Assembly (NCBI GenBank): GCA_001797335.1
Contig: MGPE01000001.1
Location: forward strand, 1 to 64,000
Source of the DNA: Deltaproteobacteria bacterium GWA2_38_16
GTDB taxonomy: Bacteria; Bdellovibrionota; JACOXK01; 2-02-FULL-40-11
Reading direction: 5' to 3'
Length of the DNA: 64,000 nt
Of the stretch, positions 1,876-61,320 are shown in pieces. Made by a program: the position numbers and the translations under genes. A model generated the notes under the pieces. The model did no database searches, was not told the DNA's origin, and saw only the letters and a list, made by a program, of their open reading frames with translations. The first letter of the stretch is position 1. Each line of letters opens with the position of its first letter.

Positions 1876-3027
1876 CTATAAATATTTCTTTAACAAGATC
1901 TCAAACTTACTGCCCTCACCCACAATAGATTCTACTCGAATATCTCCCCCAAAACTTTTAATAATCCCATAACTCACCGATAGTCCTAATCCTTGCCCCT
2001 TCCCTACTTCTTTGGTTGTAAAAAAAGGCTCAAAGATTTTTCTCATATTTTCTTTTGGAATTCCACGCCCAGAATCTTTAATAGAAATTTGAACCATATC
2101 CTTCACAAAACATTGAGCAAAAATTTCTAATTTTCCTTCTTCTCCCATCGCTTCAAACGCATTTATAAAAATATTATTAAATGCTTGTGACAGTTGGCTG
2201 GCCTCTGCACTCACTCGAGGAAGATGAGGTTCAAATTTAGTTTGAATTTCAATGCGTTTTTCATTGCGTTGCAAACAAATTCTCTGAAGAGAATTTCTTA
2301 AAATTTCTTCTAGATCTACTGCCATGAAACTTTGTTGATCTTCTTTGGTAAAATCTCTCACATTTTGAATAATCCAACTTATTCTTTGGACATGCCCTTG
2401 AATGTTTTCGAGACTTTCAGCTATTTTTTCATCTGGTTTTTTTCTCTGTAACAACTGCACTAAAGAAGAAATCGAGGCCAAGGGATTGCCAATTTCATGT
2501 GCTAGCCCTGCTGACAGTACTCCCACTGCAGCTAATTTTTCCGTCCGAAGAAGTTGTTCTTGAGTTTTCCGAAGTTCTTGGTTAGCTTTTTCTAATTTCT
2601 TTGCATAAGACTCTAATTCTTCTTGCTCTTTTTTTTGTTCTGTAATGTCTCTTGAAATTCCAGTCATCCCAATGGGTTCTCCCCGTTTATTTCTTACCAA
2701 GGCTGTTTTTAGATAAGCACAATACTCATGCCCCTCTTTTGTGACATTAATCACTTCTCCTTCCCATATATAAGGAGGTTCGAGGGTTTTTTGTAACACC
2801 TCTTCTCTTAAATTTTTTGGGTTTCGCTCCGACATAATAAGTTTTCCTGTTTTTCCAATGAGCTCTTCTCTGGTATAGCCCAGTTTTTTAAGGGCCGCAG
2901 GATTGGCATAGATAAATCGATCTTTAAGATCTGCAATAAATACCAAATCTAAAACTGACTCAAAGGTGGCCGCCATCCATCCCAAACGTTCTTCTTCTAA
3001 TGGTTTAATTTCTCTTATTAATGACAT
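1876..3027 (-). CDS. PAS-domain sensor histidine kinase, soluble
   Basis: A 383-residue kinase: PAS domain (about 18-130, ending in the PAC-like GMTGISRDITE), a coiled-coil linker (about 130-162), HisKA with the phosphoacceptor H177 in AHEIGNPL, and an HATPase_c domain with N-, G1- (DSGRGIP), F- (FEPFFTTK) and G2-type (GQGLGLSV) boxes. No membrane segment is visible, so the signal is presumably cytoplasmic and read by the PAS fold. Its ATG overlaps the last 10 bases of the upstream hybrid kinase gene, and 9 bases separate its stop from the response-regulator start, so the three are very likely co-translated. The ligand cannot be guessed. Confidence 0.9.
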   Translation of the reverse strand: MSLIREIKPLEEERLGWMAATFESVLDLVFIADLKDRFIYANPAALKKLGYTREELIGKTGKLIMSERNPKNLREEVLQKTLEPPYIWEGEVINVTKEGHEYCAYLKTALVRNKRGEPIGMTGISRDITEQKKEQEELESYAKKLEKANQELRKTQEQLLRTEKLAAVGVLSAGLAHEIGNPLASISSLVQLLQRKKPDEKIAESLENIQGHVQRISWIIQNVRDFTKEDQQSFMAVDLEEILRNSLQRICLQRNEKRIEIQTKFEPHLPRVSAEASQLSQAFNNIFINAFEAMGEEGKLEIFAQCFVKDMVQISIKDSGRGIPKENMRKIFEPFFTTKEVGKGQGLGLSVSYGIIKSFGGDIRVESIVGEGSKFEILLKKYL

Positions 3028-4100
3028 GTTTTTCGAATAACCTCTGCAATATCTTCAAAGAGACAGGGTTTTTGAAGCCAGCCATCGATATTAAGCGCTT
3101 TCATTTTGGTATGATTTAAGGGCTCTCCAAAACCAGAAATTAAAATAATTTTAGTCCCTTTATGGCGAGATTTTACATGTTGTGCCAATTCACATCCGGA
3201 TAATTTAGGCATTTTGACATCGGATAAAATAAGATCAAATTTTTGATGATTTAATTTTTGAAGGGCTTCTTGGGCATCTTGGGCTTGTTCTACTTCGTAG
3301 CCTTCTAATGATAAAAATTCTGCTGTAGACTCCCTATAATCTTTCTCATCATCTACGAGCATAATACGTTTTGCTGTTACAGGTATTTTTTGTAATTTTT
3401 TTTGAGTACAATTTTTAGGAAGCGGTAAAGAAATAATAAATGTCGCCCCCATTCCAGGAGTACTTTGAACTTCTAAGACGCCTTTATGCTTTTGAATAAT
3501 ATCGTAAGACGCCATCAGCCCTAATCCTGTCCCTCTTTGTCCCTTGGTTGTAAAATACGGCTTAAAGAGTTGCTTTACGGTCGCTTCACTCATTCCAATG
3601 CCATTATCTGAAATAGAAATTTTTAAATGCTTCCCTTGTACTTCTGTTTGAACAATAATCACGCCTTCTTTATTTTGAGAAAGAGCATCCACAGCATTTA
3701 AAATAATATTCATAAACACTTCTCGAAGCGCCGTAGCCCATACAAAAATCTTAGGAATCATTCCAAACTGTAAAGAAAGTCGAATGGCATTTTTAAAATG
3801 AGGATCCGTCATTTCAATGACTTCTGACAAAAGCTCATTTAAATTAATCCATTCTTTTTTTCCAAAAACGTGGCTCTTTTTGGAACGAGGTTTTTGTAAC
3901 CGCCTTAATACATGAGAGGCTTCTTGAGCTGCTTTTTGAATAATATTAAGATCTGAAAGGATATGAGAATCTTCAACCTTTGTCTTTAAAAGAGTCGCTC
4001 GAGAGACAATCACAGACAGCAAATTATTAAAATTATGAACCACTCCTTCGGCCAAATGATTTAGTTTTTTATTTTGAAGATATGCTCTTTTTTTAGGCAC
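3018..4100 (-). CDS. Hybrid histidine kinase with C-terminal receiver, no sensor domain
   Basis: A 360-residue protein that begins almost at the histidine box (H22 in VVHNFNNLL), followed by HATPase_c (about 85-228, DNGIGM and GTGLGLM boxes) and a receiver domain (about 244-358, phosphoacceptor D294 in LSDVKMP). There is no N-terminal input domain and no membrane segment, so it must be controlled by a partner or act as a phosphorelay module. The start is a GTG at 4100 preceded by an AAGGGG ribosome site. A TTGACA/TAATAAT promoter lies about 120-145 bases upstream. It is first of a three-gene signalling operon and overlaps the PAS kinase start. Confidence 0.87.
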   Translation of the reverse strand: MPKKRAYLQNKKLNHLAEGVVHNFNNLLSVIVSRATLLKTKVEDSHILSDLNIIQKAAQEASHVLRRLQKPRSKKSHVFGKKEWINLNELLSEVIEMTDPHFKNAIRLSLQFGMIPKIFVWATALREVFMNIILNAVDALSQNKEGVIIVQTEVQGKHLKISISDNGIGMSEATVKQLFKPYFTTKGQRGTGLGLMASYDIIQKHKGVLEVQSTPGMGATFIISLPLPKNCTQKKLQKIPVTAKRIMLVDDEKDYRESTAEFLSLEGYEVEQAQDAQEALQKLNHQKFDLILSDVKMPKLSGCELAQHVKSRHKGTKIILISGFGEPLNHTKMKALNIDGWLQKPCLFEDIAEVIRKTCH

Positions 4101-12779: not shown

Positions 12780-13133
12780 ATGAAAAAGAGATTCTTCACT
12801 GCGTTCAGAATGACGTTTATTCTTATGTGTTTCTCATCTAGTCTCACTTTTGCAGTAGAAAGAAATCCTTTTGAACCCCTAGTTACTTCTCCAGACAAAT
12901 TATCTCAAACCGCTTCTCCCGAACAGTACGCATTGGGACAACTCTCTTTAAAAGCCGTTATTTGGGACACTGAAAAAAAGTTAGCCCTATTTCAAACGGA
13001 CGATGGAAAGACGCTTATTGTAAAACCTGGCAATAAAATAGGCAAAAAGGGTGGCATCTTAACCTCGATTGGTGATAATATAGTATTTATTAAAGAAGGA
13101 ACCAAAGAAGTTAAATTTAGGCTTAAAAATTAA
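12780..13133 (+). CDS. pilP: Type IV pilus assembly protein PilP, with repeat-like signal peptide region
   Basis: A 117-residue secreted protein. After a signal peptide (cleavage likely after LTFA, about residue 25) comes RNPFEPL and the small beta-sandwich domain seen in PilP (GQLSLKAVIWDTEKK, VKPGNKIGKKGG). It normally links PilNO to the periplasmic domain of PilQ. It is shorter than typical PilP (about 170 residues), lacks the usual lipobox, and its signal peptide reads MKKRFFTAFRMTFIL, where RFFTAFRMT is the translation of a short repeat-like DNA motif (see 12788-12814). The core domain is intact. Confidence 0.85.
   Translation: MKKRFFTAFRMTFILMCFSSSLTFAVERNPFEPLVTSPDKLSQTASPEQYALGQLSLKAVIWDTEKKLALFQTDDGKTLIVKPGNKIGKKGGILTSIGDNIVFIKEGTKEVKFRLKN
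12788..12814 (+). repeat. Short repeat-like motif inside the pilP signal peptide
   Basis: The stretch contains ATTCT and AGAAT arms (12791-12795 and 12807-12811) around TCACTGCGTTC. It closely resembles a dispersed motif recalled from many bacterial genomes that translates as RFFASLRMT-like peptides. Only one copy was noticed in this window, so repeat status is inferred from recollection. Confidence 0.4.
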
Positions 13134-17854: not shown

Positions 17855-18613
17855 ATGAACTGGATTACCACTATCACCTTTGTCATCTATGCCACTATTT
17901 CTATTCTTCTCATGGCTTCTTATTTTTATTTTGTTTTCTTTCAAAAAGATAAACATGCTAAAGATCAAGAATTAAAAGAACTTTCTGCCTCCAAATTGGT
18001 TAATCGTGTTACGCGTGAATGGTGGATGTGGATTACTAATCCCGTTGAAGAATATTTAGTCCAAAAAAAATTTCATCCTAATACTCTCACTTTTTTAGGA
18101 CTCGCTATTACAACCCTTAGTTTCATTGGATATAGTTTTGGTTGGTTTGTTTTTGCTGGATGGTGCGTCCTCATTGGAGGCACTATGGATATTTTTGATG
18201 GCCGAATTGCCAGACGTTTGGGAAAAACTTCTAAAAGTGGGGAATTTTTAGATGCCAATATGGATCGGATTGGTGAATCGCTTATTTTTTTAGGCCTTTT
18301 AAATTATTATACAAACACTCTTTTTTTCTACATCGTCTTTACTGCCTTTGTAGCTTCTCAAATGGTAAGCTATGCCAAAGCTCGGGGAGAATCCTTGTCC
18401 ATAGAAGCCAAAGTTGGCTTAATGCAACGTCCTGAAAGAATTGTGTGGATTGGCGTTCCTTCTGTGTTAAGCCCTTTATTTGCGACTGGGGCACATTATT
18501 TTTTTCCCATTTCAAATACTTGGCTTGCTTCCGTTGGAATTACAGTTGTTGCCATCATGAGTAGCTATACTTTCTACGAACGCTTTACGTACATTTCTAA
18601 AAAATTAAGCTAA
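17855..18613 (+). CDS. CDP-alcohol phosphatidyltransferase family protein
   Basis: A 252-residue membrane protein with a first helix at about 5-28 and several more from about 75 on. The full family signature is present: D-x2-DG-x2-AR-x8-G-x3-D-x3-D, seen as MDIFDGRIARRLG...GEFLDANMD. Such enzymes transfer a phosphatidyl group from CDP-diacylglycerol to an alcohol, for example glycerol phosphate, inositol phosphate or serine. The alcohol cannot be told from sequence. The N-terminal cytoplasmic stretch (about 30-70) is longer than in PgsA. Its stop overlaps the end of uvrD. Confidence 0.85.
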   Translation: MNWITTITFVIYATISILLMASYFYFVFFQKDKHAKDQELKELSASKLVNRVTREWWMWITNPVEEYLVQKKFHPNTLTFLGLAITTLSFIGYSFGWFVFAGWCVLIGGTMDIFDGRIARRLGKTSKSGEFLDANMDRIGESLIFLGLLNYYTNTLFFYIVFTAFVASQMVSYAKARGESLSIEAKVGLMQRPERIVWIGVPSVLSPLFATGAHYFFPISNTWLASVGITVVAIMSSYTFYERFTYISKKLS

Positions 18614-20859
18614 ATTCTTTCAAATTGGGTTTGGGTGGCGAGAAATTTTTTAATGGCACCATTATCAAATTTAATCGTGACTTTTAGATTTTCTTCTTGT
18701 CCTTCTACTCGACAAATAACACCACTGCCAAAATGAGGATGACGAAGACGAATGCCAGGGGAAAAAGGATTATCACTAACTCTCTGATCAAAATCCCACT
18801 CATAGCCTTCCGGGTCCTGTCGCCGAAGGACGCCCTCCATCGTCCGTCCTCGCATGCGCTCCGGTCGCGGCGATGGAGCCTCTCCTTCAGCGCCACCCGC
18901 CCACACAGACAAACGCCTATTGCCCACTCTTCTTCTTAAATCTATCCTCTTAACAAATTCCTCTGGGATTTCATCCAAAAATCGTGAGGGTAAATTATAT
19001 TGAGGAGAACCATGAATCCGCCTTGAATTCGCATGGCTCATATACAATGCTTCTTTAGCCCGTGTCATCCCCACATAACAAAGCCTTCGTTCTTCTTCCA
19101 TATCTTCAAAATCCAACTCTCCCCGACTATGAGGAAAAAGCCCTTCTTCTACTCCAACCATAAACACATAGGGAAACTCAAGCCCTTTGGCTGCATGAAG
19201 CGTCATTAACTTTACATGATCTTCATTTTCATCCATAGAATCTAGATCTGAAATTAAAGAAATTTCTTCAAGATAGGTTTCAAGCGTTGCTTCTCTTTTT
19301 TGTTTTACAAATTCTCCCAGAGCAGAATCCAATTCTTCCAAGTTTTCAAGCCGACTTAAAGATTCTATAGTATCTTCTCCTTTTAAAAAATGAGAGTACT
19401 GCGTTTTATCTAAAACAGCATGATACAAAGCTTGAGGATTTAACTCTTCTTTTTTTTGGCGAAGTTCTTGTATAATCCCTATAAAATCTAAAATCTTTTT
19501 AGCCGTCCCAGCGTTCAGCGTATCTCCCTGAATAATTTTTTGTGCCGCCTCCAAAAAGGGTAGATTGTTTTCATGTGAATAAAGCTCAATTTTATCTACT
19601 GTCGTTTTTCCAATGCCTCGAGTAGGCACATTAATAATCCTTAAAAAACTTACATCATCTTTTGGATTTGAAAGAAGCCTAAAATACGCCATGATGTCTT
19701 TAATTTCTGAGCGATTATAAAAGTTCATTCCCCCATAAATTTTATACGCTATTGTATATTGCCTTAAAATCTCTTCAAAAACACGAGACTGTGCATTGGT
19801 TCGATAAAAAATAGAAAATTGATTTAAACTAATTCCTGCTTCTAGCGCTTTTGAGATTTCTCCCACAACAAATCTTGCCTCATGATATTCATCTTCTAGT
19901 TGCACCAGATGAAGAGAGGCCCCTTCCTCCCTTTGTGTCCACAATTTCTTGGGTTTTCGACTTTTATTATGAGAAACTACCGCAGAAGCAGCCTCGATAA
20001 TATTTTTAGTAGACCTATAATTTTGTTCGAGTTTAATTACTTTGGCCTTTGGAAAATCCTTTTCAAAAGATAAAATATTAGAAATATCTGCGCCTCTCCA
20101 ACTATAAATAGATTGATCTTCATCTCCCACCACACAAATATTGTGATGTTTATCTACTAAAAGTTTCATAAAAAGATATTGAATGTGATTGGTGTCCTGA
20201 TATTCATCCACTAAACAATATTTAAAAAGATTTTGATATTTTTCTAAAATATTTGGGTGTTTTTGAAAAAGCTGAACCGTTAATAATAAAAGATCATCGA
20301 AATCTAAGGCATTAGCCTTTTGAAGAATCGCTTGATATCGCTTATAAAGTTCTGCCATTTTTTCATCGTAAGAAGACAAGGCTTTTTTTAAAAATTTCTC
20401 GGGAGTTAGTCCACAATTCTTAGCATGAGAAATTCGAGATTGTGCCGCTCTGGGATGAATGACTTTTTCATCCCAATTTAATTCTTTTAAAGTCTTTTTA
20501 ATGGCTGAAAGTTGATCTTGTTCATCATAAATCGTAAAGGCAGGTGTATACGTTCCCAGTACTTCAATTTCTCGCCTTAAAATTTTAACACAACTTGAAT
20601 GAAAGGTAGAAACCCACAGTTGGTCACTGGGAAGAGAAAGAATTTTTTGAACCCTTTCTTTCATTTCACGAGCAGCTTTATTGGTAAACGTTACTGCTAA
20701 AATTTCATTGGGTCTTGCTTTTTTTTGATCGATTAAATTGGCAATGCGATAGGTTAAAACACGGGTTTTCCCACTTCCCGCTCCTGCCACTACTAATAAA
20801 GGCCCTTCTAGGTTTTCAACCGCCTCTCTTTGCCGTTCATTCAGTTCTGTTAATTTCAT
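18610..20859 (-). CDS. uvrD: UvrD/PcrA/Rep-type DNA helicase with an in-frame repeat insertion
   Basis: A 749-residue superfamily 1A 3'-5' helicase acting in nucleotide-excision and replication repair. Seen: Walker A VVAGAGSGKTRVL (about 23-35), AVTFTNKAAREMKER, Walker B YCLVDEYQDTN, VVGDEDQSIYSWRGA, LEQNYRST, VKLMTLHAAKGLEF and RRLCYVGMTRAKE. After the helicase core, residues about 654-683 (WAGGAEGEAPSPRPERM and following) are Arg/Gly/Pro-rich and encoded by GC-rich DNA matching the element at 61235-61320. The C-terminal module resumes with IRLRHPHFGSGVICRVEGQ. The frame is open throughout, so the insertion is tolerated in the linker. ATGA overlap with glmS. Confidence 0.93.
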   Translation of the reverse strand: MKLTELNERQREAVENLEGPLLVVAGAGSGKTRVLTYRIANLIDQKKARPNEILAVTFTNKAAREMKERVQKILSLPSDQLWVSTFHSSCVKILRREIEVLGTYTPAFTIYDEQDQLSAIKKTLKELNWDEKVIHPRAAQSRISHAKNCGLTPEKFLKKALSSYDEKMAELYKRYQAILQKANALDFDDLLLLTVQLFQKHPNILEKYQNLFKYCLVDEYQDTNHIQYLFMKLLVDKHHNICVVGDEDQSIYSWRGADISNILSFEKDFPKAKVIKLEQNYRSTKNIIEAASAVVSHNKSRKPKKLWTQREEGASLHLVQLEDEYHEARFVVGEISKALEAGISLNQFSIFYRTNAQSRVFEEILRQYTIAYKIYGGMNFYNRSEIKDIMAYFRLLSNPKDDVSFLRIINVPTRGIGKTTVDKIELYSHENNLPFLEAAQKIIQGDTLNAGTAKKILDFIGIIQELRQKKEELNPQALYHAVLDKTQYSHFLKGEDTIESLSRLENLEELDSALGEFVKQKREATLETYLEEISLISDLDSMDENEDHVKLMTLHAAKGLEFPYVFMVGVEEGLFPHSRGELDFEDMEEERRLCYVGMTRAKEALYMSHANSRRIHGSPQYNLPSRFLDEIPEEFVKRIDLRRRVGNRRLSVWAGGAEGEAPSPRPERMRGRTMEGVLRRQDPEGYEWDFDQRVSDNPFSPGIRLRHPHFGSGVICRVEGQEENLKVTIKFDNGAIKKFLATQTQFERI
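18812..18898 (-). repeat. GC-rich palindromic element, copy A, in frame inside uvrD
   Basis: Read on the minus strand this aligns to 61235-61320 with about 74 of 87 positions identical and one gap (hand count). The arms at 18892-18871 and 18842-18821 form an imperfect hairpin (17 of 22 complementary) around a 28-base loop. The GC content stands out sharply from the AT-rich flanks. The insert adds about 29 codons without a stop and lies in the linker between the helicase core and the C-terminal module. The behaviour resembles the Rickettsia palindromic elements, although no sequence relation to them is claimed. Confidence 0.8.
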
Positions 20860-61208: not shown

Positions 61209-61234
61209 TTGGCTTAAGAATTATGTAACTAGGT

Positions 61235-61320
61235 GGGTGGCATCGAAGGAGAGGCTCCATCGACGCGACCGGAACGAAGTGAGGACGAACGATGGAGAGC
61301 GTCCTTCGATGACAGGACCC
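61235..61320 (+). repeat. GC-rich palindromic element, copy B, between mnmE and mnmG
   Basis: Second copy of the element found in uvrD, about 85% identical over 87 aligned columns. Arms 61241-61262 and 61290-61311 pair over 18 of 22 positions (10 and 8 bp blocks with a 4-nt internal bulge) around a 27-base loop. Relative to copy A, two arm pairs change together (A-T to G-C and T-A to C-G), so the hairpin looks maintained. It would be transcribed in the 136-base mnmE-mnmG spacer and could affect the message; there is no T-run after it, so a simple terminator is unlikely. Confidence 0.8.

Follow-up and report, generated by a model that had tools for sequence, protein, structure and literature searches.

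The insertion of RPE palindromes within Rickettsia genes (Ogata et al. 2000) and the fusion of Correia elements to ORFs have been reviewed, and in one tested case, Gmk, the product of the RPE-bearing gene was still enzymatically active (PMC2229807). GTAG- and CGTC-tagged REPs also lie inside genes of several species, many of them repair genes, the tagged genes including UvrD/Rep helicases, uvrA, uvrB and recB, the last with a REP at about the same site in two Xanthomonas, according to a 2013 survey by Di Nocera et al. (PMC3733652), which sets a mutator hypothesis against the alternative that flexible linkers accommodate the repeats. Given these intragenic REPs and the RPE and Correia fusions, the kind of event described here, a palindrome inserted in frame within a uvrD gene, is already known, and an earlier note on this DNA went too far in calling it uncommon outside Rickettsia.

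The element lies in a window of 64,000 nucleotides from Deltaproteobacteria bacterium GWA2_38_16. Like the Rickettsia RPE it is a long hairpin of ~100 nt, dispersed both between genes and in frame within conserved protein genes; however, RPE are reported to measure 105-146 bp and to have 12-bp terminal repeats, the phylum, the sequence and the ends are different here, and a search confined to exact matches gave neither an occurrence in Rickettsia nor sequence kinship to a described RPE family. A second class of repeats in the same genome, short and with a GTCAT start, shares with the CGTC-tagged REPs, RPE-4 and RPE-6 included, the presence of intragenic units, and in both cases repair genes are tagged, a UvrD/Rep helicase among them, and there is no dedicated transposase. 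The CGTC-tagged REPs have an 8-9 bp stem, a 4-5 nt loop and a CCA tail, unlike the short repeats, which have an outer stem of ~5 bp, an inner GAGCGAAGCGA part and a ...GATC end without CCA. The Correia/NEMIS elements of Neisseria fall into two size classes, one gene-fused with an open frame and the other almost only intergenic (PMC2229807), which recalls the gene-borne and intergenic subfamilies reported below, but neither their 24-bp terminal repeats nor their target duplication is seen here.

An in-frame palindrome in the UvrD linker

The uvrD/pcrA gene (18610-20859, minus strand) matches PcrA/UvrD and encodes 749 amino acids, comprising a helicase core and a C-terminal tudor domain, in an ORF that is open throughout. 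The palindromic element occupies exactly 18812-18898 (minus strand) from box to box, reading GGGTGGC...GACAGGACCC on the gene strand and corresponding to residues 654-683; its 5′ end box GGGTGGC is at 18892-18898 (GCCACCC on the plus strand) and its 3′ end box GACAGGACCC at 18812-18821 (GGGTCCTGTC on the plus strand). It is 87 nt long, that is 29 codons, and introduces no stop, which bears out the earlier proposal of an in-frame insertion of about 29 codons. The GC content of the element is 71%, against 36% across the window, and copies elsewhere in the genome, at loci unrelated to uvrD, match its DNA over ~90-100 nt with up to 92% identity. A wider match to these copies, from TGTGTGGGC... to ...GGAAGGC, covers 18805-18910 (minus strand, residues ~650-685), which is probably the full extent of the insert.

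As the earlier note had it, the insert falls between the helicase core and the C-terminal module, namely in the linker that precedes the PcrA/UvrD tudor domain (residues 704-742; 18634-18750, minus strand), which is intact downstream of it. The alignment of PcrA (1pjr) to UvrD reaches residue 660 and then appears again, weakly, over the tudor domain. An AlphaFold2 model built from the window UvrD together with 39 homologues from viral contigs averages a pLDDT of 87.5 but drops below 50 over residues 644-695 (18775-18930, minus strand), with a well-formed tudor domain behind them, so that the insert is predicted to lie in a disordered linker. With the tudor domain intact and the linker of such low pLDDT, tolerance of the peptide, one of the two outcomes that the note envisaged, is probable. 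The other, a new basic surface, finds no such backing, since the encoded peptide (residues 654-683, AGGAEGEAPSPRPERMRGRTMEGVLRRQDP) has 6 Arg and 5 acidic residues when read from the sequence, no net basic patch being evident, and is predicted to be disordered.

Comparison with relatives was expected to reveal a clean insertion of 29 residues, which was seen in part. UvrD orthologues of the same family, at 59-68% identity, do not have the residues of the 29-codon insert, and the suspicion that relatives without the repeat might share them is thereby answered; the repeat peptide is likewise missing from the linker in the uvrD of three relatives (G002, G004 and G006). The borders are blurred, however, and compared with relatives that lack the element the window UvrD is longer by a net 20-25 residues or so. 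The linker varies in length across the phylum, and this hypervariability makes the insertion borders and any target duplication in uvrD unreadable, just as the distance of the relatives makes the empty site unreadable.

The long element in its own genome

In the genome to which the window belongs (G000; 2.0 Mb, 19 contigs), a similarity search returned 16 near-full copies and additional fragments, and an exact search yielded 17 box-to-box units, one of them with a different interior, against 0 in the reversed control; a pattern search of the same genome gave no further interior variant. All full copies have the end boxes GGGTGGC and GACAGGACCC in common, and the element measures 87 nt from box to box and ~106 nt with its flanks. 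The second copy that had been noticed in the window, at 61232-61320, is real: it is a box-to-box match at 61235-61320 (plus strand), intergenic and upstream of a mnmG/gidA-like start, and between its boxes it does not differ from four further copies, which are intergenic as well. Identity of these five intergenic copies over 86 nt points to a recent spread.

The element is internal and in frame in uvrD, mutL and the gene of a GAF/diguanylate-cyclase-like (GAF/GGDEF) protein, and it lies at the C-terminus of lipB and prmC (intragenic counts in this genome rest on fetched stretches of it), so that the scan for similar inserts in other proteins, as suggested in the note, was fruitful. These five copies make up one subfamily with the same strand and frame (GGAEGEAPSPRP...), and most copies outside it are intergenic or at gene ends. 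As 2-5 frames are open in each copy, the identical frame use is suggestive but not decisive.

In the alignment of the long element (A1), nested stems of 10 and 8 bp are found, without the 4-5 nt loop of the CGTC-tagged REPs. Across the copies 99.5% of the pair cells are complementary, and double-sided changes occur in 10 of the 28 pairs, compared with 4.5 in shuffles; 0 of 500 shuffles and 0 of 6 slid controls came near the observed value. Paired changes together with such consistent pairing indicate co-evolution of the two arms, or else their renewal together in palindromic form. Folding of single sequences, taken alone, is only moderately unusual (z -2.3). The GGGT/ACCC ends pair in all copies, and the flanks carry no readable target duplication. 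As for the unpaired CGTC or TGTC tag that CGTC-tagged REPs have at one end, the long element reads TGTC-ATCGAAGGA in one orientation and the short repeats begin GTCAT.

A DNA similarity search of 144 genomes of relatives gave no match outside the own genome. The subfamily pattern, sought as exact matches only, had a single and apparently chance match (Muribaculaceae) among 84,980 species genomes and none in viral contigs. A scan of the window at Rfam gathering thresholds returned no family; microRNA matches obtained by E-value at loci of the superfamily described below were set aside, as they fall under the gathering scores and look like artefacts of long hairpins.

We found no transposase that could be linked to the element. 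Y1/RAYT enzymes were considered as mobiliser and rejected, because the genome holds only a broken Y1 (IS200/RAYT-like) transposase (G000:C19:6497-6840; L352, L358) and no box pair lies beside the Y1 genes examined; the element ends also lack the GTAG of the GTAG REP/RAYT systems.

A possible superfamily with fixed ends

The box pair recurs in a few other genomes. With a spacer of 62-92 nt it is found 17 times in the own genome and 10 times in G007, and with a spacer of 30-60 nt there are 7 pairs in G055 and 11 in G067, which makes 4 of 389 genomes, the only other box-pair match among the relatives being a single chance-like one in G191. Most of the G055 and G067 units lie within flanking arms of 20-34 bp that are copy-specific, yet complementary within each copy. 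In these units (L286-L297, e.g. L295:1471-1593) the apical stems are copy-specific as well. In viral contigs, the end boxes gave 49 matches in a first set, with stem scores expected by chance except for L234 (7-bp stem), and 40 in a second, unscored set.

We tentatively suggest, as a reading that we hold to be somewhat less probable than its negation, that the uvrD insert belongs to an undescribed hairpin superfamily defined solely by the asymmetric boxes GGGTGGC and GACAGGACCC, the rest being a copy-specific, near-perfect palindrome, down to the flanking arms of 20-34 bp in two of the genomes. The attC sites of integrons also have fixed boxes around a copy-specific palindrome, and the G067 and G055 members resemble them in this respect, by analogy only; the boxes are different, there is no cassette array and the insertions are in genes. 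If the superfamily holds, the copy-specific arms would not be explained by copying of one master element, and one would have to consider insertion into existing hairpins, formation of the palindrome where the element lands, or selection for a structured hairpin in RNA or DNA. G055 harbours another dispersed palindrome family of ~137 nt with GAGCCTATCC...GGATAGGCTC ends (L348:11506-11642, L349:10201-10339).

Short repeats and different palindromes in the same linkers

The short repeat, searched as GTCATYCYGARCGAAGYGARGRATC with at most 3 mismatches, is present 69 times in the own genome and 5-23 times in each of the seven nearest relatives, with 0 in the reversed control. Thirty of the 69 lie within ORFs of at least 120 aa (for example L262:1328-2428, L276:819-1706 and L147:2-3001), of which some are at ORF ends and may fall outside the true gene. 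Repeat peptides lie between Pfam domains in E2 (twice), in ParB (between HTH and dimerisation domains) and in CarB (between the halves), and further repeat-bearing proteins are DapB, ArgS, ThiI, LolCE, LysA, NAD(P)H-hydrate dehydratase, LpxK, IleS and pantothenate kinase, where the repeat seems to replace residues instead of being cleanly added. The window itself has a short repeat, GTCATTCTGAACGCAGTGAAGAATC, at 12790-12814 (minus strand), which codes on the plus strand for the N-terminal start of the ORF at 12780-13133. This ORF and two others (L274:1481-3499 and L139:872-1588) have a repeat-coded, RFFTAFRMTF-type start of a signal-peptide-like N-terminus, and all three are exported or lipoprotein-like. 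On the upstream side of the tmRNA gene (2718-3067), ~20 nt away from it, lies another short repeat (L144:2674-2698).

Different short palindromes, of the GTCATYC...GRATC type, occupy the same UvrD linker in three relatives and in two reading frames: GTCATCCTGAGC...GTCATCCTGAGCGAAGCGAAGGATC in G005 (peptide HPERSEGSP), CGTCATTCCGAGCGAAGCGAGGAATC in G001 (HSERSEESP) and, in a different frame from these two, GTCATCCCGAGCCCGAAGGGCGAGGGATC in G003 (SSRARRARDLP). The MutL linker holds palindromes in four genomes. In the own genome it is the long element, at residues 365-396, which follows a domain whose last residue is 353 and precedes MutL_C, whose first is 440; in G005 it is a short repeat (HPERSEGS), in G006 the peptide reads SFAYAQDD and more, and in G007 it is a superfamily member with degenerate end boxes, a different interior and the opposite orientation. 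The E2 acyltransferase of the own genome has two short repeats, one per linker, and that of G001 has one. The G001 E2 linker (L343) reads SHPERS...SEGSR, as though a further insert of ~17 residues had split the short repeat.

Tolerance, benefit and other explanations

Our main reading, to which we give a probability of about 0.78, is that the uvrD insert is a non-autonomous, dispersed, REP/RPE-like palindrome that survives near-neutrally in a disordered linker. The element would have moved into uvrD, presumably mobilised in trans by an enzyme encoded outside it, and would now be translated as part of UvrD. Since it entered a disordered linker in frame and without a stop codon, UvrD would remain whole, the copy would escape purging and the effect on the protein would be near-neutral. 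The presence of unrelated palindromes in the same linkers and of repeat peptides in the linkers of other housekeeping proteins suggests that linker tolerance mainly governs survival. Recurrence in two DNA-repair proteins could nevertheless reflect more than tolerance, and the insertions may be adaptive, retained because they alter how active UvrD and MutL are or how they contact their partners, for instance by giving rise to mutator lineages, an idea that the 2013 survey raised for REPs in repair genes (PMC3733652). The repeated arrival of different elements in the UvrD and MutL linkers of related genomes would fit such a benefit, as would the prominence of repair genes among REP-tagged genes (PMC3733652), but we consider it unlikely, given that the UvrD peptide is predicted to be disordered, that uvrD does without it in G002, G004 and G006, and that many proteins outside repair (ParB, CarB, DapB, ArgS, LysA, ThiI, LolCE, E2) carry repeat peptides, several of them in interdomain linkers.

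The strong covariation of the arms and the stable fold could also mean that the hairpin acts in the mRNA, through stability, RNase III cleavage or ribosome pausing, with the peptide as a by-product. However, intergenic copies keep their palindromes just as well, the covariation accordingly being a property of the element itself and not of a role in uvrD, and no Rfam family matches, which leaves this reading slightly less likely still. That the residues are ancestral UvrD linker merely resembling the repeat would suit a linker of variable length, but is highly improbable in view of the DNA identity to copies at unrelated loci, the contrast in GC content and the absence of the residues in relatives. 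A repeated element could in principle have been stitched into uvrD by the assembler, and we regard such a chimera as just as improbable, since an element of ~100 nt is shorter than usual reads, uvrD is in frame on both flanks, other genes have in-frame copies and relatives show analogous inserts.

Near-neutral survival of a dispersed palindrome thus remains our preferred reading. The literature searched contained neither the same element nor recurrent linker insertions, and the host phylum Bdellovibrionota, the recurrence in the same linkers, the gene-dwelling subfamily and the fixed-end superfamily are apparently new. The finding extends protein-coding palindromes to a lineage of the Bdellovibrionota, and a superfamily whose ends are fixed while its palindromic arms vary freely would have a spread that simple copying does not explain. 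Orthologous linkers of UvrD, MutL and E2 carry different palindromes in related genomes, which had earlier been seen only for recB of two Xanthomonas, and, with the same linker bearing different inserts or none, the question of whether such insertions are tolerated or beneficial becomes testable by comparison.
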